Part shown: piece after piece, positions 3,656 through 20,153 of the stretch | Position numbering within the stretch: position 1 is the first letter of the stretch | How the letters are laid out: every line of letters begins with the position of its first letter | From: a virus | IMG/VR virus record: IMGVR_UViG_3300020478_000035 | Location: 1 to 32,266 of that record | Length of the DNA stretch: 32,266 bases | Reading direction: 5' to 3' (one strand) | The notes under the pieces: model-generated | What the model saw: the letters and a program-made list of their open reading frames with translations, nothing else | Databases searched by the model: none | What the model was told of the DNA's origin: nothing | Made by a program: the position numbers and the translations under genes

Positions 3656-4374
3656 TCGGGCACTTCCAAAATTTCTGAACGCTCTGCCTTTGGGCCAATG
3701 CGCTCACCTTTTTCATTCAAGCCTGTTCGTATACTCCCCATCCAAGTCCACGGTTCTTCCTCTAACTGTTTCATCTTGGCGTCACCATATTCTTGACGCT
3801 CCTTCATCAACTCAGGCTTATCCCAATAATTTTCTACTTCAAATTCAACTTCTGACAATAATGATTCTTCATAAAACTGAAAAAACATAAATGGCATTCC
3901 TTTAGGAAAAGTAATAGGAGTGTTTTCTTTTGTTATTCTCCAATTCATATTCCACTCATCAGGCCACCATGACGTAGGAATGTTCGCAGTCATAGGAACG
4001 GCACCATCAACAAAATAGTTAGGTGTACCCGAAACCCATGTGCAAATTCCGGGTGGAGTGTTCATAGACCACGAAGTAGCGAAAGAAATTGTTCCAATAA
4101 TGCTAGAAAAAACAATTGGTCTTGAATACTCCTGTCCATCAGTAGTATGAGTCATCATTTCTCCAGTCAAGATGCGTGGAGGTGTATTCCCCCCATCCCA
4201 CTGAACAACAACATCTTGTTGAAGTTGCATTTCCCAACCATGAATATTTGCCGATGTTACGGGATAACACTTATAAGCATGTTTTTTGTAAGTTTCATCC
4301 ATCCAATCGCGTCGTGGACGAGATTGTTTAATTGTTGGCGGGTTCTGATGAGTGCGGGTAAGTGTTACCTTCAT
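3652..4374 (-). CDS. DUF6065-like protein
   Basis: This 240-residue protein has the layout I associate with DUF6065. An N-terminal basic/aromatic segment leads to YPVTSANIHGWEM, then a QWDGG segment, a FSSIIGTISFATSW strand, TPPG (106-109), an IPTSWW segment (132-137), and NWRIT followed by PITFPKGMPF (144-162). It appears all-beta, with no transmembrane segment or signal peptide. The last third is charged and helical. DUF6065 proteins have no settled biochemical role that I know of, but they occur beside 2-oxoglutarate oxygenases, as here. The C-terminal layout also resembles the two proteins at 6714-7457 and 14710-15474. The gene shares ATGA overlaps with both neighbours, which argues for tight translational coupling with the oxygenase upstream. 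Confidence 0.68.
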   Translation of the reverse strand: MKVTLTRTHQNPPTIKQSRPRRDWMDETYKKHAYKCYPVTSANIHGWEMQLQQDVVVQWDGGNTPPRILTGEMMTHTTDGQEYSRPIVFSSIIGTISFATSWSMNTPPGICTWVSGTPNYFVDGAVPMTANIPTSWWPDEWNMNWRITKENTPITFPKGMPFMFFQFYEESLLSEVEFEVENYWDKPELMKERQEYGDAKMKQLEEEPWTWMGSIRTGLNEKGERIGPKAERSEILEVPE

Positions 4375-5066
4375 GTTCCAGCAGTAGTCACCTGTGGGTT
4401 TTCATCGTCCACAGAAGACGACTTAACCTCTGCATATGCTCCATGATTTTGATGATTGCGGTCATTGTAATCAAACATAGTTACACCAGAATATTTAATT
4501 CCCTCCGTGACAGGAAGTGATTGATGGGCGTATATAAAAGTAGATGGGAAAACAAGAAGGTCTCCCGCTTCAGGCAAAAATCTAATATCTAAATATGGAA
4601 ATTCTAATTCCCCACCTTCATAAGCATTATTCAAATAGCCCACTGTTGAAACGGTAGCGCTATAAGAAAACCCATGATCCGCATGAACGGAAAAATGTTG
4701 ACCTTCTGTGTACCTTACAAAATTTGTTGCCTCTTCATATTCCATTTCGATGTTGTAACGCCTCGTGTAATCTGCCACACAATGACGAACTTCTGTAATG
4801 TATTCTGAATAAACTTTGCCTGCATCTTCAAACTCTTCAGGAATGTTTTCTAAATCCGAATCCCGCAATTTAAAATCGTGACAATCTCTATAGTCCGGCA
4901 TTTCCTGCAAATCCCCCACAAGAGCCTTATGCCATGAATAGCAGACGTCCTCGCTGTCACCAATAGCATTTTCTAATCTTTCGGCAAGATTAGATTCCTC
5001 CGGCCATACCTTTTTATATAAACAAATCCCGAATCCGGGATGTCCACATGCTCCTGCAAATTCCAT
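4371..5066 (-). CDS. Fe(II)/2-oxoglutarate dioxygenase, prolyl 4-hydroxylase-like
   Basis: From the ATG at 5066 this is a 231-residue protein. It has the complete catalytic set: H128 and D130 (SVHADHG), H181 (YAHQSLPV) and a basic residue K191 ten residues on. The GGELEFPYLDIRF and PEAGDLLVFPS strands are typical of P4Hc-type enzymes. Lysine at the 2-oxoglutarate site is the state found in true prolyl 4-hydroxylases. An in-frame TTG at 5081 is possible, but the ATG has a good GGAGAAG site at the right spacing and does not overlap the preceding gene. The N-terminal GACGHPGFGICLY segment has two cysteines. The stop overlaps the DUF6065-like start as ATGA. Candidate substrates are peptidyl proline or another side chain; not decidable from sequence. 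Confidence 0.88.
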   Translation of the reverse strand: MEFAGACGHPGFGICLYKKVWPEESNLAERLENAIGDSEDVCYSWHKALVGDLQEMPDYRDCHDFKLRDSDLENIPEEFEDAGKVYSEYITEVRHCVADYTRRYNIEMEYEEATNFVRYTEGQHFSVHADHGFSYSATVSTVGYLNNAYEGGELEFPYLDIRFLPEAGDLLVFPSTFIYAHQSLPVTEGIKYSGVTMFDYNDRNHQNHGAYAEVKSSSVDDENPQVTTAGT

Positions 5067-5067
5067 A

Positions 5068-5721
5068 TTATTCTTCTCCAAACGCTGCTAATGAATATTG
5101 ATTAAATCCAGTAACAGTATAAAAAGATGGTGTCGTCCATCTTATTCCAGACTTTATTTCTTTAACTCCATGCAAATAATTAACATCACCTATATGAGCG
5201 ACTCCCATACCTGCTTTTATTTCTAATTCTATATCATGTTGAGGATAATATATTTGTCCACCCTCAAAATCGTCATTCCAATAAATAATAGAATTGAGAT
5301 CGTAGGTAGGGAACGGGTTCGGTGTCCCATCATTAAGTTGCTTGTCGGCATGAGGCAACTGTTCATTTCCGGGCAACCACCTCACAAGAACTGGTGGGCG
5401 AGCATATGTGCTAACTCCAAATTTATCTTCTATTGCCATCCCTATTTTTAAAATATATTTATTGATCATTTCAAATATAAATGGATTTATCCGCTGAAGG
5501 ATGTCTCCGCTACACATACGATCCCACCAATAAGAAGCATCATAAATACAAACACCTTCATCGTTGTATTCTGTTTCCCTAGGGTTGTCCCATTCTTTTA
5601 TATGTGGCATAAAGGCAGACATATTCTCTAAATCCACAGGACTTACCAAATCAGGAATAATTATAATATTGTCCGAAGAATCACCAAAATAACCCGGCGG
5701 CACCAGTGATTCCTCCATCAT
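5068..5721 (-). CDS. Fe(II)/2-oxoglutarate dioxygenase
   Basis: Starting at the ATG at 5721 the protein has 217 residues. A start at 5739 would add six residues but lacks a ribosome binding site, whereas 5721 follows AGAGGA. Iron ligands are H124 and D126 (LPHADKQ) and H184 (YLHGVKEI); R194 is the probable 2-oxoglutarate contact, ten residues later. GGQIYYPQHDIELEIKAG is the usual beta-helix strand pair. The Arg instead of Lys separates it from the P4H-like neighbour downstream. The N-terminus (residues 1-60) is hydrophobic/acidic and resembles the pre-core helix region of phage oxygenases. It ends one base before the next gene's ATG, so the two are almost certainly one transcript. Substrate unknown. 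Confidence 0.86.
   Translation of the reverse strand: MMEESLVPPGYFGDSSDNIIIIPDLVSPVDLENMSAFMPHIKEWDNPRETEYNDEGVCIYDASYWWDRMCSGDILQRINPFIFEMINKYILKIGMAIEDKFGVSTYARPPVLVRWLPGNEQLPHADKQLNDGTPNPFPTYDLNSIIYWNDDFEGGQIYYPQHDIELEIKAGMGVAHIGDVNYLHGVKEIKSGIRWTTPSFYTVTGFNQYSLAAFGEE
5073..5079 (-). promoter_or_regulatory. ribosome binding site deciding the start at 5066
   Basis: On the minus strand GGAGAAG lies six bases before the ATG at 5066. It supports this ATG over the in-frame TTG at 5081, which would overlap the upstream gene. Confidence 0.6.
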
Positions 5722-5728
5722 TAAAGAT

Positions 5729-5734
5729 TCCTCT
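5729..5734 (-). promoter_or_regulatory. ribosome binding site deciding the start at 5721
   Basis: On the minus strand AGAGGA lies seven bases before the ATG at 5721. The alternative ATG at 5739 is preceded by a T-rich stretch without a recognisable site. Two ATG codons follow each other at 5721 and 5718. Confidence 0.5.
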
Positions 5735-5762
5735 TTCATCTAAAAATACTACCAGATATTGT

Positions 5763-6710
5763 CTAGAGGAGAAGGTCTATGTCTTCTTTCAACTTTTGTA
5801 CAGCATCATCAATATTGGCTTTTTGTGTAGGAGTAGGCCACCCCTCATGCCACTCATTAAGAGTATCTATATAAGATTCTTTGTAATGTTTCCATTTTTC
5901 AGGTGGCATTAATTCAACATCATGCATACCGCGAGGCATGTCATATGGAGAACCATCAGGTTGCACCCTATTGAAAGACACCCCCACATCTGGATCAAAT
6001 ATGTCAAACGGAAGACCATGTTCATCTATTTCACCACTTAAAAACCCATTATGATAACGACGCACTTGGGTGCCCGTTCTATCTACAAGAAATTTTTCCA
6101 TGTGACCCGGAACTGGCCTCCAACCCGGCTTTGTCACATCGGGAACTTTCAACTTAGGATCGTCCGCCCAATCGTTAACTTCCCAATGGTGAGGCATGCC
6201 ATTTTCTTCTAATGGAAGTTTGTCTCCTTCTGTTATGAAAAACCAAAACGGATGAGGTTCTTGTTCTTTTACAGACCCTTTAAGTCTCTTTGGATCATAC
6301 ATATTCCAATCTTTGTCATACCGAGCATTGGTCAACTCGGAAAAAGTATAAGTAACACCAAATTCTTCACGACCATACCGTTCAGCAATTTGACCGGGAG
6401 TTAGTTCCTCTCCGGTTTCTTCCTTCAAATTGCAAGCATAAGTTTCTAATCCTTCTCCAAACTCTGGAAGATTATGTCTAGGGAAGTCATCTACAACTAT
6501 TATCGCAACATTAAAATCTTCATCTGGATAAGACTCATGCAATTCCTGCAAGGCAATATGTTGCGTTATGTTTCCACAACCAGCGGAACAATTGGCAAAC
6601 AAAGTAACTTTTCCTTTGAATTGTTGCAAATAACCGTCTGTTCCGTCAGCCGCTTTCATATCAAAATCATAAACTGATCTATCAAGTGTTAATGTTTCTA
6701 CAGTAGTCAT
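5763..6710 (-). CDS. glutathione peroxidase-like thioredoxin-fold protein with C-terminal extension
   Basis: This 315-residue protein carries glutathione peroxidase landmarks: VYDFDMKAADG (13-23), an FKGKVTLFANCSAGCGNIT region with the likely peroxidatic Cys at C45, QHIALQELHESY (50-61) matching the family's helix, and MEKFLVDRTG (204-213) matching the conserved FL(V/I)DRxG strand. The classical Gln and Trp-Asn partners are not clearly present. C93 could act as a resolving cysteine. The protein is far longer than ordinary GPx (about 160 residues), with a long insert between the Cys helix and the DRTG strand and an extra 100 residues at the C-terminus. In context it could remove peroxides or reduce disulphides around the oxygenases, which inactivate when their iron is oxidised; that role is inference. 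It lies 41 bases upstream of the next gene's start. Confidence 0.72.
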   Translation of the reverse strand: MTTVETLTLDRSVYDFDMKAADGTDGYLQQFKGKVTLFANCSAGCGNITQHIALQELHESYPDEDFNVAIIVVDDFPRHNLPEFGEGLETYACNLKEETGEELTPGQIAERYGREEFGVTYTFSELTNARYDKDWNMYDPKRLKGSVKEQEPHPFWFFITEGDKLPLEENGMPHHWEVNDWADDPKLKVPDVTKPGWRPVPGHMEKFLVDRTGTQVRRYHNGFLSGEIDEHGLPFDIFDPDVGVSFNRVQPDGSPYDMPRGMHDVELMPPEKWKHYKESYIDTLNEWHEGWPTPTQKANIDDAVQKLKEDIDLLL

Positions 6711-6713
6711 GCT

Positions 6714-7457
6714 CTAAATAATATCATCGTCGGCTTGTCGCTGATGCTTCCTATATGCACCCTTGCGCCGAAAAGTCTGAAAGCCTCCATGTCCAACACC
6801 CCTGTTAGTGGCATGTTTGTGCATGTATTCATCTCCCATAATAACTTTTTTAACTTGATCACTTCTCTTAAAAGGAATCAAATGATAAATAGGTGTGCCA
6901 GCAGGAATAATAAATTCTTCATCAGACAACACTCTTAAAGCCACATTTCCTCTATGAAAATAATCACTATTAATCACAGAAGGCAATACCTGATATCTGG
7001 AATCAGGTTCATAAAGAACAGGTAAACATAATAACGAATAACCGGGAGCAGTTTTATATAGAAACGGGGATCTCAAATCAGGACATCCAGCATGTTCCAC
7101 TGGGCGATCCTCCATAAAAGGACACCCTTTAGTCGTTTCTGCATCAAATTGTTCAGCAGAAAAAAAGGAATCCGCCATGGCCACTGCCGTACCGCCACCT
7201 TCTGTGGGGTGTATCTTCACATCCCCCCACAACGGCACAGTAATACCAAGAGATAAATAATCCTGAATACCCTTACAACGAGCAACCGCTACATTATCCT
7301 TGCCCGCTTTCTTAAACCAATCAGGCCAACCAGCAGAATTGCGAAAAGGTGGATGTTCCAACAAGCGATTATCTTTTGGCACTACCAATATCTCATTGGG
7401 TTTCACTTTAGGCCAGTCAGCATAAGACCGGAGATTACGCAACCTTCTAGAAAGCAT
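6714..7457 (-). CDS. DUF6065-like phage protein, paralogue 1
   Basis: This 247-residue protein is a clear paralogue of the one at 14710-15474. Both share RSYxDWPKVKP near the N-terminus, KGIQDYLS and GITVPLWGD (62-79), LYKTAPGYSLL (133-143), a VLPxxxNxDY segment, and an AGTPIYHLIPxKR segment followed by a basic RRKGxYRxHQRxAD tail. The TAPG and AGTPIYHLIP segments sit where the DUF6065-like protein at 3652-4374 has TPPG and KGMPFMFFQF, so I infer one beta-rich superfamily. The ATG at 7457 abuts a GGAGG with no spacer, which is odd, but the paralogue starts at the same alignment point (MLxxLxN), so I keep it. No enzyme motif recognised. It lies between the PASTA protein and the peroxidase-like gene. 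Confidence 0.72.
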   Translation of the reverse strand: MLSRRLRNLRSYADWPKVKPNEILVVPKDNRLLEHPPFRNSAGWPDWFKKAGKDNVAVARCKGIQDYLSLGITVPLWGDVKIHPTEGGGTAVAMADSFFSAEQFDAETTKGCPFMEDRPVEHAGCPDLRSPFLYKTAPGYSLLCLPVLYEPDSRYQVLPSVINSDYFHRGNVALRVLSDEEFIIPAGTPIYHLIPFKRSDQVKKVIMGDEYMHKHATNRGVGHGGFQTFRRKGAYRKHQRQADDDII

Positions 7458-7477
7458 CCTCCAAGTTTACACCCTTC

Positions 7478-7867
7478 TTAGATGAAGTGTGGCGGAAAGT
7501 GTGGCGGAAAGTGCGGTGGGAAGTGTGGTGGGAAATGAGGTGGAAAGAATGGTGGGAAATGAGGTGGGAAATGTGGTGGGAAAAATGGTGGGAAATGAGG
7601 AGGGAAATGAGGAGGAAAATGAGGAGGAAAATATGGACTGTAATAAGTGTAGTCAATGGTAAAACCTAACGGATATTCCGTATCAGCCGCTACCACCTGT
7701 GATTCTACAGTATTTAATACCTGTGAACCAGTAGCGTTAGTAGTCGATTTAGTTCCTACCGTGAATCCAGCCGACGTTATCTGTGAGTCAGCATTGGTCG
7801 TAGTTTCACCAACAATATCAGGAACGGTGTCTTTTCTAGGCCCCGTTCTACCCTCTGACTCAGCCAT
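7478..7867 (-). CDS. PASTA-domain protein with a tail of twelve FPPH-type repeats
   Basis: This 129-residue protein has two parts. Residues 15-76 (VPDIVGETT..., SAGFTVGTKS, EYPLGFTIDYTY) match the PASTA domain consensus, a small fold found in penicillin-binding proteins and Ser/Thr kinases, where it can bind peptidoglycan fragments, and occasionally in phage virion proteins. Residues 80-127 are twelve tandem four-residue units, FPPH in ten and FPPF in two, before a final Phe-Ile. There is no signal peptide. Its start shares TAATG with the stop of the long fibre gene, so it is translated with the fibres and is probably a virion or fibre accessory protein. The Pro-rich His-rich tail could be a metal-binding rod or a hydroxylation substrate; both are inference. 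Another minus frame through the repeat gives a His/Ser-rich translation that I regard as a shadow. Confidence 0.75.
   Translation of the reverse strand: MAESEGRTGPRKDTVPDIVGETTTNADSQITSAGFTVGTKSTTNATGSQVLNTVESQVVAADTEYPLGFTIDYTYYSPYFPPHFPPHFPPHFPPFFPPHFPPHFPPFFPPHFPPHFPPHFPPHFPPHFI
7487..7630 (-). repeat. tandem 12-bp repeat encoding FPPH units
   Basis: Twelve copies of a 12-base unit, almost pure pyrimidine on the coding strand and purine on the plus strand (GTGGGAAAT-like). Codon-level variation between copies shows it is not a simple recent slippage product, but copy number is likely to vary between relatives. Confidence 0.9.
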
Positions 7868-10800
7868 TATGCCTCAAGGTCTCCTACCAGTATCCACTCG
7901 TCTGTAGCGATCTTAATACAAGTTACAGATGAGTACTGGGCACGCAATTTCAAACCCGGTGTGTATCTCAAAGTCACACCAGAACCAGCCGCCATGGTTA
8001 CTTCACCAGAACCAAGACCAGCAACCTGAACTTGAGTTCCCACAGGGAACGCAACACTGCTATTAGGTGGAACTGTAATTGTCTGAGCGGAACCATTGCT
8101 AGTTGTAACTAACTTGCCTCGGTCCGCGAGTACGAAGGTGTAGGTGGTGCCCGACTGGGCATTCAAAGCAATATTGTCAATAACGTTTCCTGTTACATCA
8201 ACAGTGGAACCGTCCATGACAACAAATTCTGAACCAGCGACATCAAACCGGATTTTGTCCTCGTCTGAGGATTCCTCAACCTGAATCTTCGTGTCGTCAT
8301 CAGCGTCTGCGATTGAGTCGCTACTAAGAGCGCCCAACTCTGTCTGAACATAAGCCGTAGTAGCAATCTGAGTAGTATTCGTATCCGCCGCAGCAGTTGG
8401 AGCCGCTGGAGTACCCGTAAGGGTTGGAGAAGCCAAAGTAGCGTAATCACCCAACTCTGTCTGCACATAGGCGGTTGTGGCGATTTGGGTCGTATTTGTA
8501 TCCGCTGCCGCAGTTGGGGCAGCCGGAGTACCTGTCAAGGTTGGAGAAGCCAAAGGTGCATAATCACCAACTTCAGTCATTACGAACGCTGTAGTCGCAA
8601 CCTTTGTTGAACTATCATTAGCCGATTGAGTAGTAGCAGTAGTTCCATCTGTAAGAGCAGTGATTGCACTCAAGTTTCCTGTAGTTACAACTGTTCCAGT
8701 TACATCAGGAATAGTAATTGTTCTATCTGCCGTTGGATCGGTGATAGCCAATGTGGTTTCGTGGTCATCCGCTGTTGCACCTTCAAATATGAAAGGACTA
8801 GCGCCTGCGATTGTTCCACTAAATGTGGCAATACCTGAAACTGTTAAAGCAGTTAGTGTTCCAACACTTGTTAGTGAAGAAGTCGTAACTCCTGACCCAA
8901 GGGTTGAAGCATTTAGAACCGATGTGCCTGCGATATAGATGGCTTTTCCAGAAGCGAGGTCGATATGTTCTGAAGATGTCCAAGCGTCTGTCGAATTGAC
9001 CCAATTCCATGTTTTGTCAGTTGCACCCTTCAGGGTGATTCCACCGCCGTCAGCAGTAGTGTCGTCAGGAGAAGCAACAGAACCAAGTTCGATATTCTTA
9101 TCATCAACACTCAAAGTTGTGGAGTTGATCGTTGTTGTAGTTCCGTTAACCGTGAGATCGCCAACGATCGTTACAACACCAGTAGCGCCGATTGTCATTC
9201 TTTCAGTGCCAGCGGTGTCGAAGCGGATGATGTCTTCATCCGTACCTTCTTCTACCTGAATCTTTGTGTCGCCATCAGCATCAGTTATTGAATCGCTACT
9301 AAGAGCATTTAGACCAGTGTCCACGTAAGCGGTAGTAGCGACCTTTGTTGAGTTGTCGTCTGCCGACTGTGTAGTTGCCGTGGTGCCATCAAAGAGTGCT
9401 CCTGCATTCCCTGTGGTTATTACCGTACCCGTAGCATCAGGGAAAGTGATTGTTCTATCCCCAGTTGGGTCTGCAACAGTAAGAGTTGTTTCATGTGCAT
9501 CTGCTGTGGCACCTTCAAAACGAAGCGTGTTGCCGGTATTTAGAAAAAGACCGTCATTTTTAATTCTTGCAACAATTTCATTTGAACCAGCAGAAACAAC
9601 TGCAAACTCTATAAGTCCATCTTCAGCGCCAGCCGTTGGATCGTCAATCTTTCCAGTAATTTTTGCGTATGTGTGGCTTGCTCCACCAGAATCGTCACCT
9701 GTGAATTTTATTTGTCCAAGGTAATCCGCGGCAGCAGGGCTTGCACTGTCTCTTACTAGATCAATAATTGGTGCGGCTGCTGAACCAGCATCTGTACTGG
9801 TCGCTGTCAAATCCCCTGTAAAGGATGCATTTACTGCGCTCAGATCAGCGGTAACTGTTAAATCGTTTCCAATCGTCACATCGTCGGGCAGTCCAACTGT
9901 AACTGTTGCTGTTTCGGCACCTGAACCAGAAACTTCAACCTCATTAGAGGTTCCTGCAATCGTAGATATGTAACTACCAGTTGTATCTGTACCTAAAGCA
10001 ACTGAATCAGCGGCAACTGTTGCCGTAAGAGTTGCACTAGCCAAATCTGTGATTGTTACGTTACCTGTAAGGTCACCGCCCAATGTGATTGTGAAATCTG
10101 CGACATTAAGATCAATCGCCCCATCCCCATCGTCATCGTAAGTAGCGGCGATACCTGAGTGTGAACCATTTGTAACTAACTGCCCTGCAACAATGTCTTG
10201 AACATTTTCTGTTACTAGAGCCAAGTCAATAGCACCGTCTCCAGCATCATCGTAAGTAGCAGTGATGCCTGTATGAGAACCATTGGTCGCAAACTGTGCG
10301 CCCGTAATATCTTCAACGTTTTCGGTTATAAGTGCTAAATCAATAGCGCCATCACCAGCATCGTCATAAGTGGCAGTAATACCTGTATGGCTTCCGTTGG
10401 TTGCCAACTGAGCACCTGCAATGTCCTGAACATTTTCAGTAACAAGGGCTAAATCAATAGCACCGTCTCCATCATCGTCATACGTTGCAGTGATACCCGT
10501 GTGAGAACCGTTTGTTGCCAACTGAGCGCCAGCAACATCCTGAGTGGCTTCCGTAAAATCTGTAACAGCAGTGGAAGGAATAGCAATAGTCGTATTAGAA
10601 GCGGCAGTTAAACGACCATAAGCATCTACCGTGTATCCGGGAACCTGTGTAGCACTTCCATAAGAAGCGGCAGTAACAGCCGTAGTCGCCAAATCCAAAT
10701 CATCGGCATTGGTAACAATTCGTGCACTACTAGCAGTACCCACGTTTATCGTATTGCCTGTGATACTTACACCTGTACCAGCCGTAAATGCTTGCGTACC

Positions 10801-11526
10801 AGTGAACTGTGTGAAAGTAATACTATCTGAACCGATAGTGTGCGGATCACCAGTAGAAGTAACCACAAAACCTTGACCACTATTTGTACTTCCAGAAAGA
10901 GCATAAACAGAATCACCGGCTTTTACTTGACCAGCAGGAGTGCCATCAAAATCATCCGCACGGGTTAAAACCCAAGCGGCTGAACCAGAAGCACCCTGAG
11001 TGGTTACATCATAAATACCATTTTGCACTGCACTGGATTGATCTTGGACAAGAACACGATCACCCGCAGTAGCATTAACGCCATCCACAACAAGACGAAC
11101 ATTGGAATCAGAAGTAAGAGTTGCTCCTACACCAGAACTGCCATTGTCATATGTAGGAGAATTCGGCAAAGCGGCGGCAGAAGCAAGTTTTACTGCCTCA
11201 TGCCAATTTACAGTTGCATCACTTGAAGACCATTTAACACCTGTGGTAGTAGAAGAATCTGCAACCAACACTTGACCATTGGAACCAACTCCAAGTCGTG
11301 CAATTGTATTATCTGCTGTACCAAGGATCAAGTCACCCTTAGCATCAATAAAGTTTGTACCGAGTACACCGATACCATAACTAAGGCTTGACCAAGCAGT
11401 ACTACCGTCGCCAATCTTATACTGACCAGTGTCTGTTTCTATTCCAAGTTCTCCAGCCGCTAAGGTCGGGTCATTGGAAGTCCAGTTGGATGCTGTATCC
11501 CTTCTAAATTGAATTATTGATGCCAT
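7867..11526 (-). CDS. long repetitive phage tail fibre protein
   Basis: This 1219-residue protein starts with the fibre N-terminal motif IQFRRDTASNWTSNDP and GELGIETDTGQYKIGDG (5-41), widely seen in phage tail fibre adhesins. It then has a VDG...GDRVLVQDQ...QNGIYDVT module (about 111-242), four 38-residue repeats (326-477), duplicated HETTL...DRTITFPDATGTV blocks, a SIxDADxDTKIQVEE block present twice, a TTTTINSTTLSVDDKNIELG segment common in marine phage fibres, and two ASPTLTGTPAAPTAA repeats. The C-terminal 100 residues form a distinct non-repetitive cap, probably the trimer tip. A good AGGAAAG ribosome site precedes the ATG. It is expected to be a trimeric host-recognition fibre. The internal duplications are typical of genes that grow and shuffle by recombination. 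Confidence 0.9.
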   Translation of the reverse strand: MASIIQFRRDTASNWTSNDPTLAAGELGIETDTGQYKIGDGSTAWSSLSYGIGVLGTNFIDAKGDLILGTADNTIARLGVGSNGQVLVADSSTTTGVKWSSSDATVNWHEAVKLASAAALPNSPTYDNGSSGVGATLTSDSNVRLVVDGVNATAGDRVLVQDQSSAVQNGIYDVTTQGASGSAAWVLTRADDFDGTPAGQVKAGDSVYALSGSTNSGQGFVVTSTGDPHTIGSDSITFTQFTGTQAFTAGTGVSITGNTINVGTASSARIVTNADDLDLATTAVTAASYGSATQVPGYTVDAYGRLTAASNTTIAIPSTAVTDFTEATQDVAGAQLATNGSHTGITATYDDDGDGAIDLALVTENVQDIAGAQLATNGSHTGITATYDDAGDGAIDLALITENVEDITGAQFATNGSHTGITATYDDAGDGAIDLALVTENVQDIVAGQLVTNGSHSGIAATYDDDGDGAIDLNVADFTITLGGDLTGNVTITDLASATLTATVAADSVALGTDTTGSYISTIAGTSNEVEVSGSGAETATVTVGLPDDVTIGNDLTVTADLSAVNASFTGDLTATSTDAGSAAAPIIDLVRDSASPAAADYLGQIKFTGDDSGGASHTYAKITGKIDDPTAGAEDGLIEFAVVSAGSNEIVARIKNDGLFLNTGNTLRFEGATADAHETTLTVADPTGDRTITFPDATGTVITTGNAGALFDGTTATTQSADDNSTKVATTAYVDTGLNALSSDSITDADGDTKIQVEEGTDEDIIRFDTAGTERMTIGATGVVTIVGDLTVNGTTTTINSTTLSVDDKNIELGSVASPDDTTADGGGITLKGATDKTWNWVNSTDAWTSSEHIDLASGKAIYIAGTSVLNASTLGSGVTTSSLTSVGTLTALTVSGIATFSGTIAGASPFIFEGATADDHETTLAITDPTADRTITIPDVTGTVVTTGNLSAITALTDGTTATTQSANDSSTKVATTAFVMTEVGDYAPLASPTLTGTPAAPTAAADTNTTQIATTAYVQTELGDYATLASPTLTGTPAAPTAAADTNTTQIATTAYVQTELGALSSDSIADADDDTKIQVEESSDEDKIRFDVAGSEFVVMDGSTVDVTGNVIDNIALNAQSGTTYTFVLADRGKLVTTSNGSAQTITVPPNSSVAFPVGTQVQVAGLGSGEVTMAAGSGVTLRYTPGLKLRAQYSSVTCIKIATDEWILVGDLEA
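8333..8566 (-). repeat. two direct copies of a 117-bp fibre repeat
   Basis: Two adjacent 117-base copies inside the long fibre gene encode the ASPTLTGTPAAPTAA and TTQIATTAYVQTELG units. The copies differ mainly at third codon positions, so protein sequence is under selection. A third, partial unit precedes them in translation order. Confidence 0.85.
10096..10551 (-). repeat. four direct copies of a 114-bp fibre repeat
   Basis: Four 38-residue units each contain GAQLATNGSHTGITATYDD (with variants) followed by GDGAIDL. The DNA copies differ at many silent sites, and the last copy is the most divergent (VAGQLVTNGSHSGIAATY). The Asp-rich loop looks like a calcium-binding turn. Confidence 0.88.
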
Positions 11527-11539
11527 ATTTCTTTCCTAC

Positions 11540-12001
11540 CTATGCGTATGGATACGTCGAAGACGATCCACCATCTGCTGTAACGTAATATCGAACCCAA
11601 GCGGCAGAAGTTCCACCATCTGCTTTAGTGCTACTTACTTCTGAAGTGGCACCCGAACCACCTGCTAAAATCCATGAGCCTCCAGAGCGGAAATAGAGTT
11701 TGTCTCCACTTGTATCCACTGCCAGAGCACCATCTGAAAGAGATGCAGTGGGTGTATCGGCATCAGCCATTGTCACAAGACCTGCACTTGCTTCAAAAGT
11801 GTCATCTGTTTTCAAGGTATTTGCCGCAGAACGATAAAGAGTTGTATCGCCTGTTGCGGAACCACTACCCCAAGTCATCTTTCCATCAGCAGTAATAATG
11901 ATTCGTTCCGTGCTTTCAGCATCAAGTTTGACCGTAAACGCCTCAGTAGACGTAGCGGCAAGTTCTTCTATGTTGATTGGAGTTTTAAATGCTTGTGCCA
12001 T
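11540..12001 (-). CDS. phage tail fibre/virion structural protein
   Basis: This 153-residue protein, rich in Ala, Ser, Thr and Gly, sits between two fibre genes, 13 bases before the long fibre gene. Residues 20-40 (AFTVKLDAESTERIIITADG) and the SDGALAVDTSGDKLYFRSGG segment (about 88-107) are typical of short trimeric shaft modules in phage fibres; the latter resembles the DTSxxKLYFRSGGSW pattern used where a fibre carries a short beta-prism. There are no transmembrane segments or catalytic motifs. It ends in a Ser/Tyr-rich tail. A role as a short fibre, fibre connector or virion decoration is inferred from composition and position. Confidence 0.7.
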   Translation of the reverse strand: MAQAFKTPINIEELAATSTEAFTVKLDAESTERIIITADGKMTWGSGSATGDTTLYRSAANTLKTDDTFEASAGLVTMADADTPTASLSDGALAVDTSGDKLYFRSGGSWILAGGSGATSEVSSTKADGGTSAAWVRYYVTADGGSSSTYPYA

Positions 12002-12011
12002 TACCTCACCC

Positions 12012-13562
12012 CTAACCCGTTACCACTACTCGGTATGCATTGCTTGCAGGAGCCGTTGAAAAATCGATTGTTGCTGAATCATTATCCGTACGAACAACAT
12101 CAGAAATAACAGTGGCATAAGTAGTCGTGTCATAAACTTGAACACTTACATCACGAGTACCTAAACCGTGAGTAATTGTGTAAGAGGTATTAGAACCATC
12201 ACCTACATTCTGTGCAACAGTACGACTCAAAAGTGGATTACTTGTAGTTCTAGAACCTGAAGAAGAATCACCGGCTGCTAAATAACCATTTGCACGAGCA
12301 TTTGCTGCTGTTGTCGCTCCTGTACCACCATTTGCAACTGGAAGAGTTCCGGTTACGCCACCTGAACCACTAGCCGCAAGATTAGAAGCATCAGCACTTA
12401 AAACACCTGCGGTGAAAGTAATACCTGTACCAGCAATATTTGACTTAATAGCCAAACCGCTACTATCTGTTTCAAGACCAGAAACACCACTATTTAATTT
12501 AATCTGAACATTATCTCCAGAAGTTTCTAAACCTCCAGCAGCCGCAATATTGATAGAAAGAACACCACTTGCGATTCCTAAACCATCACCAGCCGCACTT
12601 GAAGAAATTGAAAGAACACCAGAAGTGAAAGTAATTCCATCACCTGCCGTGCTACTCGCTAAAGCAACATCGTTTGCATTGATTGTAATTCCGTCGCCTT
12701 GTCCAACATTTAATACATCACCGCTTTTTGTTAAACCAGCGCCTGCATCTATTTGCCCTGCGCCTGAGAACTGTGAAAAGACAAGAGTATCTGTATCTAT
12801 TGTGTAAGAACCGCCACCCGACTTCGACTGAAGAACGTAACCACGATTTGCATTTGCAGTACCTTGCTCCACGAAGAAGAAACATCCAGCAGTTGCCTCT
12901 GTGCCTGTGTCGAAATCTGTAGCACGAGTTGGCGCACCAGAAGCATTAACCGTGTAAACACCATTTTGAGAACCTGTTGTTTGATCTTTCAGTAAGATCC
13001 TGTCACCCGTAGAGAGTGTTACACCATCTAAAGTGTCTCCATTTTCAACAGCGCTTGCTAAAGTCACATTTGCTGTCGAAGCCGCAACAACTGATTCTTT
13101 TGGATCTAATCCAGCCGCACGAGCGTCTACGTAACCTTTTGTTGCAGCATCACTAGCATTAGTGGGTTCCGCTAATCCTGTTACTTTCGTAACATTCACA
13201 TGCCCACTAGCATCACGCTTCATAATTGTAGAAGCAGTATCTGATTCCGTAGCGTTATTTACAAGCGTATAATGCGCCGCCGCCATAAGTCCAGCAGTAG
13301 AACCATCTGCTTCCGCAATAGTCAACTGAGGACTTCCAGCCGTACCAGCCGTAACTGTCAAGGCAGTTGTATTAGAAGTGACATCAGTAAGAACTTGTTT
13401 CCAAGCACTACTATTGTAATACTTAATAATATTATTAGTAGTGTCGTATATTAAACGACCCTCAAACTCTCCAGAACCCGGATCTCCAGAAGAAAACTGG
13501 AACTTGGCATTCTGAAGTTCGTTTTGGTTGATGTTTAAATTGGTGACGAACTTCTGCGCCAT
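12012..13562 (-). CDS. phage tail fibre protein
   Basis: This 516-residue fibre starts with FVTNLNINQNELQNAKFQ (5-22) and GEFEGRLIYDTTNNIIKYYN, an N-terminal attachment pattern seen in marine T4-like and other phage fibres. A SDAATKGYVDARAAGLDPKE linker leads to a module (about 158-267) related to the VDGV...GDRILxKDQ...QNGIYxV modules in the long fibre and in baseplate J. The centre is repetitive (DGITF, VLSI, SAAGDG units), and the C-terminus (about 455-516) ends in YTITHGLGTRDVSVQVYD, a beta-sandwich tip also found at the C-terminus of the protein at 13576-14034. It probably forms a second host-binding fibre. Start ATG at 13562 is clear. Confidence 0.87.
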   Translation of the reverse strand: MAQKFVTNLNINQNELQNAKFQFSSGDPGSGEFEGRLIYDTTNNIIKYYNSSAWKQVLTDVTSNTTALTVTAGTAGSPQLTIAEADGSTAGLMAAAHYTLVNNATESDTASTIMKRDASGHVNVTKVTGLAEPTNASDAATKGYVDARAAGLDPKESVVAASTANVTLASAVENGDTLDGVTLSTGDRILLKDQTTGSQNGVYTVNASGAPTRATDFDTGTEATAGCFFFVEQGTANANRGYVLQSKSGGGSYTIDTDTLVFSQFSGAGQIDAGAGLTKSGDVLNVGQGDGITINANDVALASSTAGDGITFTSGVLSISSSAAGDGLGIASGVLSINIAAAGGLETSGDNVQIKLNSGVSGLETDSSGLAIKSNIAGTGITFTAGVLSADASNLAASGSGGVTGTLPVANGGTGATTAANARANGYLAAGDSSSGSRTTSNPLLSRTVAQNVGDGSNTSYTITHGLGTRDVSVQVYDTTTYATVISDVVRTDNDSATIDFSTAPASNAYRVVVTG

Positions 13563-14709: not shown

Positions 14710-15474
14710 CTAACCCATGGGACATTCACCAGCGTCAGCCTCACGCTGATGCCTACGGTAGAGACCTTTCCTGTTGCTGGGTCGAAATCCGAACTTGTCC
14801 ACACCGCGATTCTGGCCTTGTTCCCACATCTTTGAAAGTCCCATGATGATCTTGTTTACATTCTCTTTTCTTTTAATGGGAATTAAATGATATATAGGCG
14901 TTCCTGCCCGTATGGTAAATTCTCGATCCGACATGACTCGAACAACAACATGCAAATTATGGTAATAATCTGTGTTTACAATAGCCGGAAGAACCTCATA
15001 ATCAGGACTTGGCTCATAGGCAACTGGTAAAACCAACAATGAATAACCCGGAGCAGTCTTATACAACCAAGGGGATACAATTTTTATATAAGGAGCCTCT
15101 GCACGCTCTCGCCCTTCATTGATAGGCGCACCTTTACACGCCTCATAACGAAAGCGTTCAACTTTAAAGTTGGGATCTGATGGTGTCGCGGTTACATCTT
15201 TAAGACCTATTGGCTGAAAATCCATGTCACCCCAAAGAGGCACGGTAATACCATGAGAAAGATAGTCTTGTATACCCTTACATCCAAGAATTGAACCTGT
15301 TGCGTCTTTAGGCATCTCTTTCCACCAGTCAGGCCAATTTTCTTGATTGACAACAGGATCGGGAAGATCATACAGACGATCACCTTTAGGGATCATCATT
15401 ATTTCACCGGGTTTGACTTTCGGCCAATCCCGATAACTTCTAGGAGTTTTTGAGTTCTTTAAGTACTTCAGCAT
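14710..15474 (-). CDS. DUF6065-like phage protein, paralogue 2
   Basis: This 254-residue protein is the paralogue of 6714-7457 and sits directly after the halogenase, whose end it overlaps by 35 bases. Shared landmarks are RSYRDWPKVKPGE (12-24), CKGIQDYLSHGITVPLWGDM (65-84), SPWLYKTAPGYSLL (134-147), VLPAIVNTDYY (161-171), AGTPIYHLIPIKR (190-202) and a basic RRHQREAD tail. A GAGGGATC ribosome site precedes the ATG. TAPG and the AGTPIYHLIP strand correspond in position to segments of the protein at 3652-4374. No catalytic motif is recognised. Its pairing with oxygenases or the halogenase in both enzyme cassettes suggests it serves them, perhaps as a substrate-carrier or scaffold. That is inference from context only. 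Confidence 0.74.
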   Translation of the reverse strand: MLKYLKNSKTPRSYRDWPKVKPGEIMMIPKGDRLYDLPDPVVNQENWPDWWKEMPKDATGSILGCKGIQDYLSHGITVPLWGDMDFQPIGLKDVTATPSDPNFKVERFRYEACKGAPINEGRERAEAPYIKIVSPWLYKTAPGYSLLVLPVAYEPSPDYEVLPAIVNTDYYHNLHVVVRVMSDREFTIRAGTPIYHLIPIKRKENVNKIIMGLSKMWEQGQNRGVDKFGFRPSNRKGLYRRHQREADAGECPMG

Positions 15475-16927
15475 GATCCCTCATCGGTCTTGAATGTTTG
15501 GCTTCTTTTAAATCATATAAAAAATCTTCCACGCTGTCCACAACCCCATATGCTGCTATTGCATCAAGGGCAACACCTGCGTCAAGAAATCCTTGCCCTT
15601 GAGCCACATAACAAAAATGCAACATCCTGAACAATAACCCCGCTCCTTGCACATCCCCATTTTCTGGAACACGTTCCGACCAGACTCCTAAAAGATGTTC
15701 CAAACTGTCTGGAATGGGCATACTTTTTTGTTTGCACCAAAATTCTGTATCTTCACGGTCGCTCATGTAATGTAAACAAATCATATCTCTTATGTTCAAC
15801 ATCATATTTTTTATCGTTTGATTGTATTGATTTATACTGTATTCATTACCTTTACGAAACGAAGCCAAAAAACCCAACAAGGCAAAAGACTGATTAATAG
15901 TAGACCCGATAGAAGTAGCCTCTAACGGCTCAACAAAAGAACTCGCCAAACCAACGGCTACACAATTACCCACCCAAGGTTTTTCTAAATAGCCCGGATC
16001 GAAATTGAAATGTTTATAATCCGATATTGAAACATTCAACAATTCTTCCATCTCAGCAACTGCTTCTTCTTCGTTGCAAAAAGCCGAAGAATATACATAC
16101 CCATTACCACGTTCTTTTTGAGTCGGAATTTCCCATGCCCACCCATTCTTTAAAGCCCTAGCCCGCGTATAAGGACGTATCTCCCCGCTCACATCAGAAG
16201 GTGTCCGAAAGGCTATTGCTGAATCTGTCAATAAATAGTTGCTGAAAGAATTCCATTTCACATCCGACAAACGTGACATCAGCACCCTGTTAAAACCGGA
16301 AGCATCTATCCAAAAATCAGCCTTCAAAGTAAGTGCTCCTACTTTTACACTTTCCACCCAGTCCGAATCCGATACGTGCACATCTACAACTTCATCATCT
16401 AAAATCCGTATATTACGTTTTTTACATTTAAAAGTTAAAAAATTGTTTAAAGCGTTTGTATCGAAATGAAATTGATTAACCGTCTTATGCGGTTCTATTG
16501 CCGAAACAATATTTTTTCGCTGATCTCCAACAATTGTGTACTCAGAAAACAGCACCTTTTTTGCTTGCAATCCCGCATACATCGCATTAAATTCTCCAAC
16601 ATGAGGAGGATTGCGAAGGCTTCCAATACTATGAAAATAATCAGGTGTATGTTTTGTCCATCCTTCAAAACGAATACCTTTCTTATGAGTCCCCTCGACA
16701 GCGGGTAAAAGTTCTGAAGCCTTGATATTCGCAAAATCCATAAAGGTTCGCCAGTGCTCCGTAGAGCCTTCTCCTACACCTATGGTCCCAATTTTACTTG
16801 ACTTAATAATAGTTATTTGAAATTCAGGGAAAGCCTTCCGCAAGATCAACGCCGAGAGTAATCCTGCGTTTCCCCCACCAACTATTACGACTCTTCTGTC
16901 AATAATCCCTCGCGTGTCACGCATCAT
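15440..16927 (-). CDS. flavin-dependent halogenase, tryptophan-halogenase family
   Basis: This 495-residue protein has the complete hallmark set. The FAD-binding motif GGGNAG (17-22) is followed by GVGEGST (50-56), and an active-site lysine (K82, in EGTHKKGIRF) aligns with Lys79 of PrnA. The halogenase signature GWAWEIP (262-268, WxWxIP) runs into NGYVYSS, and EPLEATSI (333-340) contains E336, aligning with the catalytic Glu346 of PrnA. The family uses reduced flavin, oxygen and halide to form hypohalous acid, which is held on the lysine and delivered to an aromatic substrate. A related enzyme, VirX1 of cyanophage Syn10, is established as a marine viral halogenase with an iodide preference. 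Start ATG (two in tandem, 16927 and 16924) abuts the upstream stop. No flavin reductase gene is seen, so the host probably supplies reduced FAD. Substrate unknown. Confidence 0.93.
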   Translation of the reverse strand: MMRDTRGIIDRRVVIVGGGNAGLLSALILRKAFPEFQITIIKSSKIGTIGVGEGSTEHWRTFMDFANIKASELLPAVEGTHKKGIRFEGWTKHTPDYFHSIGSLRNPPHVGEFNAMYAGLQAKKVLFSEYTIVGDQRKNIVSAIEPHKTVNQFHFDTNALNNFLTFKCKKRNIRILDDEVVDVHVSDSDWVESVKVGALTLKADFWIDASGFNRVLMSRLSDVKWNSFSNYLLTDSAIAFRTPSDVSGEIRPYTRARALKNGWAWEIPTQKERGNGYVYSSAFCNEEEAVAEMEELLNVSISDYKHFNFDPGYLEKPWVGNCVAVGLASSFVEPLEATSIGSTINQSFALLGFLASFRKGNEYSINQYNQTIKNMMLNIRDMICLHYMSDREDTEFWCKQKSMPIPDSLEHLLGVWSERVPENGDVQGAGLLFRMLHFCYVAQGQGFLDAGVALDAIAAYGVVDSVEDFLYDLKEAKHSRPMRDHAEVLKELKNS

Positions 16928-17542
16928 TTATGAGTGCCAAGTCACAATTACATATTTAGTTCCTTCTTCCACAGGAAGTGCCGTATGTGAATAAGGAAAA
17001 CTAGAAGGCATTAAAATAATCGATCCAGCAGGAGGTTTTACTTTAACTTTAAACAACGGAATTTCTAATTCGCCTCCAGTGTAATCATCATTCAAATAAA
17101 TGAGTAACGTCACTTGGCGCATGTTTAACGAATCGGCATCAGCATGCAACTGAAACTCTGTTTTATTCGTATACTTTAAACAACTCATCATCTCGCTTTT
17201 TTTCAAATTAAGCCTGAAAGCACTTTTATAATTCTGAAGAAGAGCGTTAACTTGTTGATTCAACTCTACTAAATGGTCTCTTAAAGCAAGAGCATCTGGA
17301 TCATCAAGACGTTTAGCATTCTTCCCTATAAAAGGTTCAAAATTCATTTCAACGCTAGTACGTTTTTCACTCTCTATAGTGCCACGCGTTTTATTGGTAT
17401 CAGCCATGCCATAAACCACAGATCGCCTCCACGGGGAATATGACGGGTCTTTATCGCCAACCAATTTTATTTTATCGAGCAAGGCTTCCGCCTCTGAATA
17501 ATACTCATTCCACATACAAACTGCTGGTGCCAACTCTTCCAT
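16928..17542 (-). CDS. Fe(II)/2-oxoglutarate dioxygenase, prolyl 4-hydroxylase-like
   Basis: This 204-residue protein carries a full double-stranded beta-helix motif set: H133 and D135 (LHADADS), H186 (YSHTALPV), and K196 in EEGTKYVIV at the expected ten-residue spacing. GGELEIPLFKVKV and PPAGSIILMPS are the matching strands. Lys at the 2-oxoglutarate site is as in prolyl 4-hydroxylases. It resembles the enzyme at 4371-5066 in the HAD, TALPV/SLPV, EGTKY/EGIKY core, so these two may be close paralogues. Its stop is directly followed by the halogenase ATG, and its own start directly follows the stop of the next oxygenase, making a gapless three-gene enzyme cassette. Confidence 0.9.
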   Translation of the reverse strand: MEELAPAVCMWNEYYSEAEALLDKIKLVGDKDPSYSPWRRSVVYGMADTNKTRGTIESEKRTSVEMNFEPFIGKNAKRLDDPDALALRDHLVELNQQVNALLQNYKSAFRLNLKKSEMMSCLKYTNKTEFQLHADADSLNMRQVTLLIYLNDDYTGGELEIPLFKVKVKPPAGSIILMPSSFPYSHTALPVEEGTKYVIVTWHS

Positions 17543-18211
17543 CTAATCACACGCCTGAGCCAAAATATAAATTTTATCACCATCGGTATTTGCAAGTGAT
17601 CGATGTTCCGTCCACCATGACGTTGGCATCAAAAGCACCTCACCTTTCTTAGGCTTATAAGAAGCCCTGTTTCCTTCTGAATCTTTAATGTTTAAAAATT
17701 CCAACTCTCCACCTGTATAATTATCATTAACATAGAATAAATATGTGCCAGTTCTTTCCCCCTTGCGCACATCTTGATGAAAATCAAAAAAACCGTAACC
17801 GTCTGGATACACAAGCAATTCTTGTTGCTGCAATCTTTGAAAATTATACTTAATCCCTAAATCTTCCTTCAAAATCACTTGCAACTCGCGTGCCGAATCT
17901 ATGACCAACTCAGACAAAATATCGTAGCCGTCTGGTAAGTTGTACAGCCGTCGTGCTGTGTAGCAGACACGTTTTTCTATATCTATATACGGCTCCACCG
18001 GCCCTTGGTTGCTGCCGCGATACATTTTAGATAATCGAAAAAAGTCATTTTCTGACAAATCTTCCACTAATGACTTGTCGTAATAATCATCGACAAATTT
18101 TTGCGCTACCTTACAAATAGCGTTAGCGGCAGTTACTTTAAAAACATATACGCTAGGAAGAACCTCTTCGACTCTTTCACTCTGACTTAGAGTCAATGTG
18201 ATTTGTGACAT
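17543..18211 (-). CDS. Fe(II)/2-oxoglutarate dioxygenase, prolyl 4-hydroxylase-like
   Basis: In this 222-residue protein the iron ligands are H145 and D147 (FDFHQDVRKG) and H203 (TEHRSLAN), with K213 in the 2-oxoglutarate position. YVNDNYTGGELEF and PKKGEVLLMPTSWW are the core strands. The N-terminal 110 residues are helix-rich with a CYTARRLYNLPDGYDI segment, as in P4H-like phage enzymes. It is the first gene of enzyme cassette II, beginning two bases after the stop of the Gly-rich fibre gene, and its stop abuts the next oxygenase's ATG. The NDNYTGGELEF / NDDYTGGELEI identity with that neighbour suggests tandem duplication. Substrate unknown. Confidence 0.89.
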   Translation of the reverse strand: MSQITLTLSQSERVEEVLPSVYVFKVTAANAICKVAQKFVDDYYDKSLVEDLSENDFFRLSKMYRGSNQGPVEPYIDIEKRVCYTARRLYNLPDGYDILSELVIDSARELQVILKEDLGIKYNFQRLQQQELLVYPDGYGFFDFHQDVRKGERTGTYLFYVNDNYTGGELEFLNIKDSEGNRASYKPKKGEVLLMPTSWWTEHRSLANTDGDKIYILAQACD

Positions 18212-18213
18212 GT

Positions 18214-19497
18214 CTAAATATTAGCAGTATCCAAGGCTATGACTCGTCCATTGACACCAGTATTAAAAGTGTAAGCAGGTGTACCTGCATCTCTAGTCAC
18301 AACGATTAGAACCCCACCACCACCACGGCCTCCTCGTTGTCCTGTGTATCCTGTTCCTCCTGCTCCCCCCGGATAAAGTGTCGCGGGCACATGGGTTTGC
18401 ACAGGAGCACCTTCGGCAGTCCAAGCCTCGCCTTCTTCAAAGAAATCAACTAGAACATCAGGATTCTCCACCTGTATAGGTTGACCTTCTTCATGTTCTT
18501 CAACGGGATCCCATTCACTTGCATGACCCGGCAACAATGTGCCGTATAACCACATAGGCTCACCCGTCCACGTTAGTACGTGGTGAAAAGAGTCGTGAGG
18601 GGGACCAGTACCGGGAGAGAATTGAGGAACGGCTTCCGTGTGATGTTCACCACCTGTATCTGCATACACTCCACTTACAGGCGGACCCTCTGCATGGCTT
18701 GTAGACGCAGGACTAGTATACGATGGTGCGGGTGTGCCATCAGTACCAGCAGTACCTGCCACCCCTGAACCACCCTCTGAATAAAGACCACCTGTACCAG
18801 TAATCACACGAGCGGCAAGCATCACCACTCCACCTCCGCGACCTCCACCGCCACCAGATCCACCAGTTCCTGCCGAACCTTTTCCTCCCGGCGATCCAAC
18901 ACTTGTTGCATTGGGAGGCCATGAACCATCTGCCCCTGCTCCATCAACCCCTTCAGCACCTGTACCTCCACCTGCTCCACCTTTAAGGCGAACAAAATCA
19001 GAACCACGCCGTTGATAACCGTTAATAGCAGCACGTAAATCATAAAAATCAGATTCAGTAACACCAACAGAACTAGTTACAGAACCAGAACCACTAAACG
19101 TATAACCGGGAACATACCCGTCCGGCTCACCGGCGCCACCCAAACCATCTACAACATTCTGACCTGCGGCAACTGTTCCTGCTAAAGAACCGGCTGTAAC
19201 ACTGCCAACAGATTCTTTAATTCCTAAATCCCCATTTAATGTCAATGTGTTCTTTACAAACACCCGCCAACCATTCGGATTTAAAGTTTTACCAGCATCA
19301 ATAGTTAAATTGTTGTAATACATGTCTTCTGTGAGACTTGTATCAGCGGAGATGGTTACATCACCATCTTCTCCATTCCCAAAAACCAACTCACCATCAA
19401 ACTGAACATCCCCAAATTCTCGTTGTGGCATAGCATCTATTACATACGGAATTAAATCTTTGTCTCGCCGAACGTCTTGGTAGCGTGCCTCTGCCAT
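18214..19497 (-). CDS. Gly-rich fibre/adhesin protein
   Basis: This 427-residue protein has an N-terminal beta-domain (about 39-92: FGNGEDGDVTISADTSLTED, then LTIDAGKTL, WRVFVKNTLTLNG) shared with the next protein upstream (19497-20153). Two long Gly-rich stretches follow, with GGAGGGTGAEG, GGSGGGGGRGGG and VVMLAARVITGTGG segments, like the polyglycine sandwich arms of T4-group adhesins and other fibre proteins. A variable, His/Pro/Glu-containing insert (about 265-375) interrupts the Gly arms and could be the specificity part. It shares a one-base TAATG overlap with the upstream paralogue. It probably mediates receptor contact. Low-complexity makes exact homology uncertain. Confidence 0.75.
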   Translation of the reverse strand: MAEARYQDVRRDKDLIPYVIDAMPQREFGDVQFDGELVFGNGEDGDVTISADTSLTEDMYYNNLTIDAGKTLNPNGWRVFVKNTLTLNGDLGIKESVGSVTAGSLAGTVAAGQNVVDGLGGAGEPDGYVPGYTFSGSGSVTSSVGVTESDFYDLRAAINGYQRRGSDFVRLKGGAGGGTGAEGVDGAGADGSWPPNATSVGSPGGKGSAGTGGSGGGGGRGGGVVMLAARVITGTGGLYSEGGSGVAGTAGTDGTPAPSYTSPASTSHAEGPPVSGVYADTGGEHHTEAVPQFSPGTGPPHDSFHHVLTWTGEPMWLYGTLLPGHASEWDPVEEHEEGQPIQVENPDVLVDFFEEGEAWTAEGAPVQTHVPATLYPGGAGGTGYTGQRGGRGGGGVLIVVTRDAGTPAYTFNTGVNGRVIALDTANI

Positions 19498-20153
19498 TAG
19501 TCAGCCTCTAAGAAAGAAGTTGTCCCCGCAGACCCTGTTCCAGCGCCAGCGGCACTAAGCGTATATGAATGACTTTTATCAGATGAAATCAATATCACTA
19601 CCCCTCCACCAGCATTACCTGAAGCCGTAGCGACCACACTCCCGCCACCAAACAAATAACGTGCGGCAACAATTACTACACCGCCGCCATAATTCGTACC
19701 GTCACCAGCGCCACCTTTCAACAGGTTAATACTTCCATCACCGGGATTAAAAGAATAACCATCAACAGCGTTCAATGGATTTCGATACCACTTAGAACCA
19801 CCCAAAGCGGCAGTCGGAGCCGTTGCTGTATGACTTGCCGATGCTCCACCTAAAGAATTAGTCACCGCGGCATTTTGAGTTCCAATACCTAAAGAACCTT
19901 GAGCAGACGGTCCAGCCGCCATTCCTAATGTTCCATTCAAATAAAGATTCCTTTGAACAAACACTCTGTATCCAGCCGTTGTCAAAGTTATACCTGAATC
20001 AACTGTTAAATCCAAATAGTACATATCTGAAGTTAACGTAGTGTTGGTACTGATCGTCACGGAACCATCTTCACCGCTTCCAAAAATATGCGACGGAGAA
20101 TCATAAAAATCCGCTAAAGCATCAGGAGCGCCTATTCGGACAAGCCGCCCCAT
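19497..20153 (-). CDS. Gly-rich fibre-associated protein, paralogue of 18214-19497
   Basis: This 218-residue protein shares its N-terminal domain (residues 23-77, FGSGEDGSVTISTNTTLTSD, YRVFVQRNLYLNGTLG) with the following gene, then has a shorter Gly/Ala-rich part (GGAGDGTNYGGGVVIVAARY, NAGGGVVILISSDKS). It looks like a minimal version of the same adhesin architecture without the long insert. The pair probably arose by tandem duplication, one copy then gaining the specificity region, or the other losing it. It is coupled by TAATG. A structural/virion role is inferred. Confidence 0.72.
   Translation of the reverse strand: MGRLVRIGAPDALADFYDSPSHIFGSGEDGSVTISTNTTLTSDMYYLDLTVDSGITLTTAGYRVFVQRNLYLNGTLGMAAGPSAQGSLGIGTQNAAVTNSLGGASASHTATAPTAALGGSKWYRNPLNAVDGYSFNPGDGSINLLKGGAGDGTNYGGGVVIVAARYLFGGGSVVATASGNAGGGVVILISSDKSHSYTLSAAGAGTGSAGTTSFLEAD

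Follow-up and report, generated by a model that had tools for sequence, protein, structure and literature searches.

In a stretch of viral DNA of 32,266 bases (IMG/VR virus record IMGVR_UViG_3300020478_000035, a fragment; the whole stretch analysed is called the window here), the genes encoding a flavin-dependent halogenase (FDH), two 2-oxoglutarate (2OG)-Fe(II) oxygenases and a dUTPase-fold protein, P4, are proposed to form one viral cassette in a tail-fibre module. The function of this cassette is predicted, with middling confidence, most likely to be the modification of virion proteins. The halogenase and the two oxygenases had been noticed in a preliminary description of this DNA; that observation is real, and the real unit is larger than was seen there, with P4 as its most telling member. 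The prediction is supported by a single direction of transcription, overlapping or abutting genes, intact catalytic sites and a conserved linkage of halogenase, P4 and oxygenase in the neighbourhood of fibre genes of Gly-rich or collagen-like type.

The halogenase (15440-16927, 495 amino acids), oxygenase A (16928-17542, 204 amino acids) and oxygenase B (17543-18211, 222 amino acids) are real genes, all on the minus strand. Oxygenase B abuts oxygenase A, and oxygenase A abuts the halogenase start codon; at the two junctions TCA TAA is followed directly by ATG ATG CGT, and GAT TAG by ATG GAA, so that the earlier statement of zero intergenic bases was confirmed for both. P4 (14710-15474, minus strand, 254 amino acids) overlaps the halogenase by 35 bases and is followed by P5 (14449-14700, minus strand, 83 amino acids), which is kept mainly in the window's own branch. 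A Gly-rich fibre-like protein of 427 amino acids (18214-19497, minus strand, 20% Gly), a candidate substrate, is encoded 2 bases upstream of oxygenase B, and a second one of 218 amino acids (19497-20153, minus strand) has an N-terminal region of the same family. According to the scan of the window genes, the surroundings of the cassette are a tail-fibre, baseplate and endolysin module.

To place these genes among viral relatives, IMG/VR was scanned with a halogenase profile, which gave at least 588 relatives, and the most similar (best 80 per scan) were analysed; expected values were derived from the other genes of the same loci. Among 84 distinct viral halogenases, P4 was the adjacent gene in 64 (3.2 expected) and a 2OG oxygenase in 41 (12.6 expected), and an oxygenase was found within 3 kb in 71. 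When P4 was taken as the starting point, a halogenase lay within 100 bases of 45 of 50 distinct P4 genes. The most constant partner of the halogenase is P4, not the oxygenases. These counts also answer the question of whether halogenase and oxygenases co-occur in relatives, which they often do. The preliminary description had read the gapless order as a sign that halogenation and hydroxylation act on the same substrate or pathway; the enrichment of oxygenases near halogenases favours such coupling, but the gaplessness says little, and P4, the tighter partner, had been missed.

The order of two Gly-rich fibre-like genes, two oxygenases, halogenase, P4 and P5 was found in contigs L003, L031-L034, L111 and L192, and with a third oxygenase in L193, while L203 starts at the first oxygenase and has the remaining order (two oxygenases, halogenase, P4, P5) in the part covered. 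Gaps between genes in close relatives with this order ranged from -22 to +9 bases, so gaplessness itself means little. In the window's branch, the order of two oxygenases and halogenase was kept down to approximately 53% halogenase identity. Elsewhere the oxygenase position varied (in some viruses it precedes the halogenase, in others it follows P4), indicating that the linkage of halogenase, P4 and oxygenase survives rearrangement. Acquisition of the whole trio from bacteria was provisionally rejected, because the neighbours in 78 bacterial loci were different (tandem halogenases and, as named from sequence reading and not by family search, TonB-receptor-like, cupin-like and SapC-like genes), and P4 was present only in two phage-looking contigs of metagenome-assembled genomes (MAGs). 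L111 and L112, contigs assigned to Gammaproteobacteria and Actinomycetota MAGs, have the cassette together with fibre genes and are probably phage sequence. Three families without a clear Pfam match (L043 4940-6001, about 353 amino acids; L035 3935-4354, about 139; L001 5681-5914, about 77) recurred no more than six genes away from viral halogenases in 50, 63 and 69 loci, respectively, and one viral contig (L105) had four halogenases within 10 kb (3741-13297).

The halogenase is a member of PF04820 (E 4.6e-102) and of phrog_2928, and its catalytic motifs are all intact: G17-x-G19-x-x-G22, K82, W263-A-W265-E-I267-P268 and E336. The glycines of GxGxxG, K82, W263, I267, P268 and E336 were invariant across 21 aligned relatives, in agreement with the motifs reported before, and GxGxxG plus the lysine was kept in 113 of 114 halogenases. 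In the alignment to PyrH, K82 and E336 take the places of the catalytic Lys and Glu (K79 and E346 in PrnA). The AlphaFold2 model (mean predicted local distance difference test, pLDDT, 91.9) has the two-domain FDH fold, and it matched PyrH with a Z score of 45 (2.1 Å over 478 residues), MibH with 39.3 and VirX1 with 37.7; a destroyed chloride site or flavin adenine dinucleotide (FAD) tunnel, named earlier as what would speak against a working halogenase, was thus not seen in this intact fold. The whole fold (Z 40-45), GxGxxG, the catalytic Lys and Glu and WxWxIP are shared with PyrH, SttH, Tar14, PrnA and RebH.

Both oxygenases matched PF13640 above the cut-off (A, E 7.5e-14; B, E 4.4e-10), and the iron triad and the 2OG-binding lysine are intact, with H133-A-D in A, H145-Q-D in B and the distal His and Lys present in each. 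The HxD..H..K/R pattern was kept in 137 of 140 oxygenases near halogenases. The label 'prolyl-hydroxylase-like' used for them before finds its support in PF13640 and in weak PDB matches, the best being a prolyl 4-hydroxylase (E 0.005), with the PKHD-type PiuC also matched (E 0.05). Some 2OG oxygenases in PHROGs and phage records (phrog_2297, phrog_274, phrog_3531; L025, L450, L451 and L453) seem to be mislabelled as 'DNA endonuclease V' or 'ferrochelatase'.

P4 corresponds to phrog_7084, where its function is given as unknown. The top Foldseek matches of its model (pLDDT 71.9) were all dUTPases or dCTP deaminases (E 6e-5 and up), and the sequence profile matched dUTPases with E 0.0014 over motifs III-IV, where AIVHTDFY was aligned to GVIDSDYR, and GVIDSDYRGEV to AIVHTDFYHTLNV. 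The Asp of motif III, which we take to be the general base of dUTPases, is replaced in P4: among 108 P4 proteins, this position was His in 63, Asn in 36 (as in the window), Lys in 1 and unread in 8. An active dUTPase was therefore rejected as a role for P4; judging from the model and the motif, P4 appears dUTPase-like in fold and, with His or Asn in 99 of 108, is very unlikely to be a dUTPase enzymatically. It shares the fold and motifs III-IV with trimeric dUTPases and dCTP deaminases and differs from them in this residue and in extra N- and C-terminal parts. The profile comparison with DUF6065 (PF19541; hhalign probability 82, E 1e-5) suggests a distant relationship, and a true DUF6065 member lies among oxygenases in the window (3652-4374), but the P4 proteins themselves stayed below the Pfam cut-off (no match for the window P4; 14.4 bits against 26.6 for L018; best E 0.027). 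S-RIM4 has a P4 homologue (L028 7815-8609) whose neighbours are ribonucleotide reductase and transaldolase genes. No halogenase lies within 8 kb of it; P4 can therefore occur where no halogenase is near.

A tree of 100 rows placed the window halogenase in a viral clade of 55 rows (99*), and VirX1 in a distinct group of 10 from cyanophages (100*). P4 was found in both, so the pairing of P4 and halogenase either is ancient and has been lost several times or arose on two occasions. In cyanophage Syn10, the gene of VirX1, the one viral halogenase that has been characterised, matches PDB 6QGM along its full length. It is found immediately downstream of genes of the tail-fibre region and overlaps by 17 bases a P4 gene that was recognised with E 1.7e-16 by a profile built without isolates. 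The analogy to VirX1 drawn in the preliminary description is therefore loose in one respect and apt in another: the window halogenase is nearer to PyrH in structure, with only 23% identity to VirX1 and a place in another clade, while the viral FDH fold and motifs, the P4 overlap and the fibre-side position are common to both. VirX1 also differs in standing in tandem with a second halogenase, with a recognisable 2OG gene approximately 3.5 kb further. P4 follows the halogenase in P-TIM40 and S-CREM1 as well, the order in S-CREM1 being collagen-like protein, stress-response protein, halogenase, P4 (annotated 'triphosphate nucleotidohydrolase'), hypothetical protein, four 2OG genes and JmjC. The halogenases of P-RSM6, P-TIM40, S-WAM1 and S-SRM01 adjoin or closely follow tail-fibre or fibre-assembly genes, and collagen-like genes lie upstream of the halogenase in DSL-LC01. 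Among GenBank phages no near relative of the window was found, and a megablast of its structural half against phage records gave no match.

A homologue of the Gly-rich fibre-like proteins was found within 3 kb of 59 of 84 halogenases, and collagen-like GXY runs (at least 10 repeats) upstream of the halogenase in 30 of 77; 'collagen' is thus too narrow a term, and Gly-rich is the wider feature. The following mechanism is proposed. Late in infection, the oxygenases would act on a fibre or repeat polypeptide that has just been made and hydroxylate the side chains of its prolines or of another residue, and the halogenase would then halogenate aromatic side chains of the same polypeptide, possibly with bromide or iodide in aquatic hosts. 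Reduced FAD would be supplied by a host flavin reductase, and P4 may bind the substrate or the enzymes as a partner or adaptor instead of hydrolysing dUTP. The product may tune fibre stability, stickiness or receptor binding.

Halogenation after hydroxylation of one peptide has precedents: MibH halogenates its peptide only after proline hydroxylation (NAI-107), and VhaA needs beta-hydroxytyrosine (vancomycin) (PMC12615548). With its FDH fold and with halogenation and hydroxylation of one ribosomal peptide, MibH/NAI-107 is the closest chemical precedent. It differs in belonging to a bacterial lanthipeptide pathway without P4, and MibO, the proline hydroxylase of that pathway, is a P450 and not a 2OG enzyme.

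Several points weigh against virion-protein modification as the function. The tail-fibre or repeat proteins are candidate substrates suggested by gene context, and neighbourhood alone cannot name a substrate, since fibre genes adjoin many phage genes. Composition can inflate the Gly-rich matching, and all frequencies describe the window's kin, as the scans keep the matches most similar to the query. The P4 model is of moderate quality, and a flavin reductase was not identified among the window genes scanned. The halogenases of S-MbCM25, S-SSM7, Sf-CH3, S-B64 and P-SSM2 are located at a distance from fibre genes and have no P4 beside them, so phage halogenases are not all of the cassette kind.

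Another explanation is that these are auxiliary metabolic genes, whose enzymes make or decorate a small molecule or a host cell-surface glycan during infection; we regard this as rather unlikely for the window, though it is how viral halogenases and 2OG oxygenases have been read (PMC9964418, PMC3037559). Cyanophage halogenases, present in 20 of 153 genomes (2OG oxygenases in 76 of 153), have been connected with host metabolites (PMC10452541) and with conversion of free tryptophan to chlorotryptophan (PMC9964418), and VirX1 accepts many small aromatics in vitro (PMC8407142). In a jumbo-phage survey, a cyanophage cluster of halogenase, 2OG oxygenases and carbamoyltransferases was interpreted as metabolite-making or as polysaccharide (capsule) decoration (PMC7824862). 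This cluster (S-SSM6a, with a similar one in S-SSM7) resembles the window in combining a phage FDH with several 2OG oxygenases but has carbamoyltransferase, heptose and sugar genes and no P4. It and the MibH and VhaA systems precede the present case, so the earlier suggestion that the combination has not been described was too strong. No carbamoyltransferase, sugar or HAD gene was found beside the halogenase, and no pathway gene near the cassette, among the genes scanned in this 32-kb fragment. The viral halogenases also differ from tryptophan halogenases, which belong to biosynthetic pathways, in having EPLEATS where PyrH has EPLESTG. In the profile alignment, the PyrH segment YYHGFE, presumably the one with the tyrosines that anchor the amino-acid part of tryptophan, met a dissimilar viral segment and had no counterpart. 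Taken with the EPLEATS difference, this makes free tryptophan not the obvious substrate. In the window's clade, the companions of the cassette are fibre genes and P4, and not genes for sugars or amino acids.

It was also considered that the halogenase and oxygenases are chance neighbours, given at least seven 2OG-type oxygenases in the 32 kb of the window, the gaplessness that is ordinary packing, and the half of the relatives that lack a directly adjacent oxygenase. Against the expected numbers given above, such chance adjacency is improbable for the oxygenases and already unlikely for P4, and the order kept in the window's branch down to approximately 53% halogenase identity, like the linkage kept despite changes of order, also argues against it. 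A nucleotide-binding role of P4, with a pyrimidine or other nucleic-acid component as the target of halogenase and oxygenases, is very improbable: the dUTPase fold, a weak Tet_JBP match of oxygenase A (E 0.012) and the automatic nucleotidohydrolase label in S-CREM1 point that way, but the catalytic Asp is His or Asn in 99 of 108 P4 proteins, PF13640 fits the oxygenases far better, and the cassette is part of the structural module and does not lie among genes for replication or nucleotides.

A second oxygenase cluster (1-7867) is present in the window, directly downstream of a gene for a 129-amino acid protein with a PASTA domain and C-terminal (FPPH/FPPF)n repeats (7478-7867, minus strand). 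The genes, all on the minus strand, encode a P4 paralogue of 247 amino acids with 51% identity to the first (6714-7457), a thioredoxin-fold, glutathione-peroxidase-like protein (5763-6710, PF00255, E 8.7e-8), a 2OG oxygenase recognised by a family hidden Markov model with no Pfam match above threshold (5068-5739), a 2OG-Fe(II) oxygenase (4371-5081, PF13640, E 1.6e-11), the DUF6065 protein, a distant P4 relative (3652-4374, PF19541, E 4.1e-39), a conserved protein not assigned to a family (3005-3655), a TauD-type 2OG dioxygenase (2128-3012, PF02668, E 2.9e-20) and a further 2OG-Fe(II) oxygenase (1308-2315, PF13640, E 9.8e-9). A tail fibre of 1219 amino acids with an Mtd N-terminal domain (PF18454, E 1.7e-15) is encoded at 7867-11526.

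PASTA-(FPPx)n repeats, in which x is mostly F, Y or H, occur beside 2OG oxygenases, DUF6065 and P4 in the window and in other contigs (L199-L202, L270-L323 and L325-L404). When viral contigs were fetched by the DNA pattern for (PPxF)4 alone, 27 of 37 usable loci had a 2OG oxygenase at most 3 kb downstream, and 17 of 25 had P4 or DUF6065 at a distance of up to 5 kb. With a repeat rich in proline and aromatic residues, and with prolyl-hydroxylase-like enzymes encoded next to it, the (FPPx)n protein readily suggests itself as a candidate substrate, and it is possible that it forms a substrate-enzyme system of its own with them. As a substrate of the halogenase it was unsupported, being near halogenases in 1 of 73 cases within 8 kb. 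Since (FPPx)n is not beside the cassette in relatives, this cluster is a parallel to the halogenase cassette, and it may serve as a sister cassette that acts on another repeat substrate and does not halogenate it. In the literature searched, the P4 partner, its link to VirX1 and the association of (FPPx)n, oxygenases and DUF6065 were not described, which is no proof of novelty; for the combination of dUTPase and halogenase in phages, the jumbo-phage survey was the sole paper found, and for DUF6065 and (FPP)n strings no paper.

More broadly, and tentatively, aquatic phages may carry dedicated post-translational modification cassettes, made of a halogenase, 2OG oxygenases and a repurposed dUTPase-fold partner, which decorate their own fibre or aromatic-proline repeat proteins, and this may be the native role of viral halogenases, possibly including VirX1. 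P4 as an obligate-looking partner, together with the fibre-module context, gives a short list of testable substrates for VirX1 and other viral halogenases. It is also suggested that many phage 2OG oxygenases labelled as metabolic or DNA-repair enzymes are protein-modifying enzymes. If true, nature would provide in this cassette halogenases that act on proteins, together with a partner protein by which they may be guided, and the halogenation and hydroxylation by phages of their own virion proteins would be a new layer of phage-host interaction chemistry.

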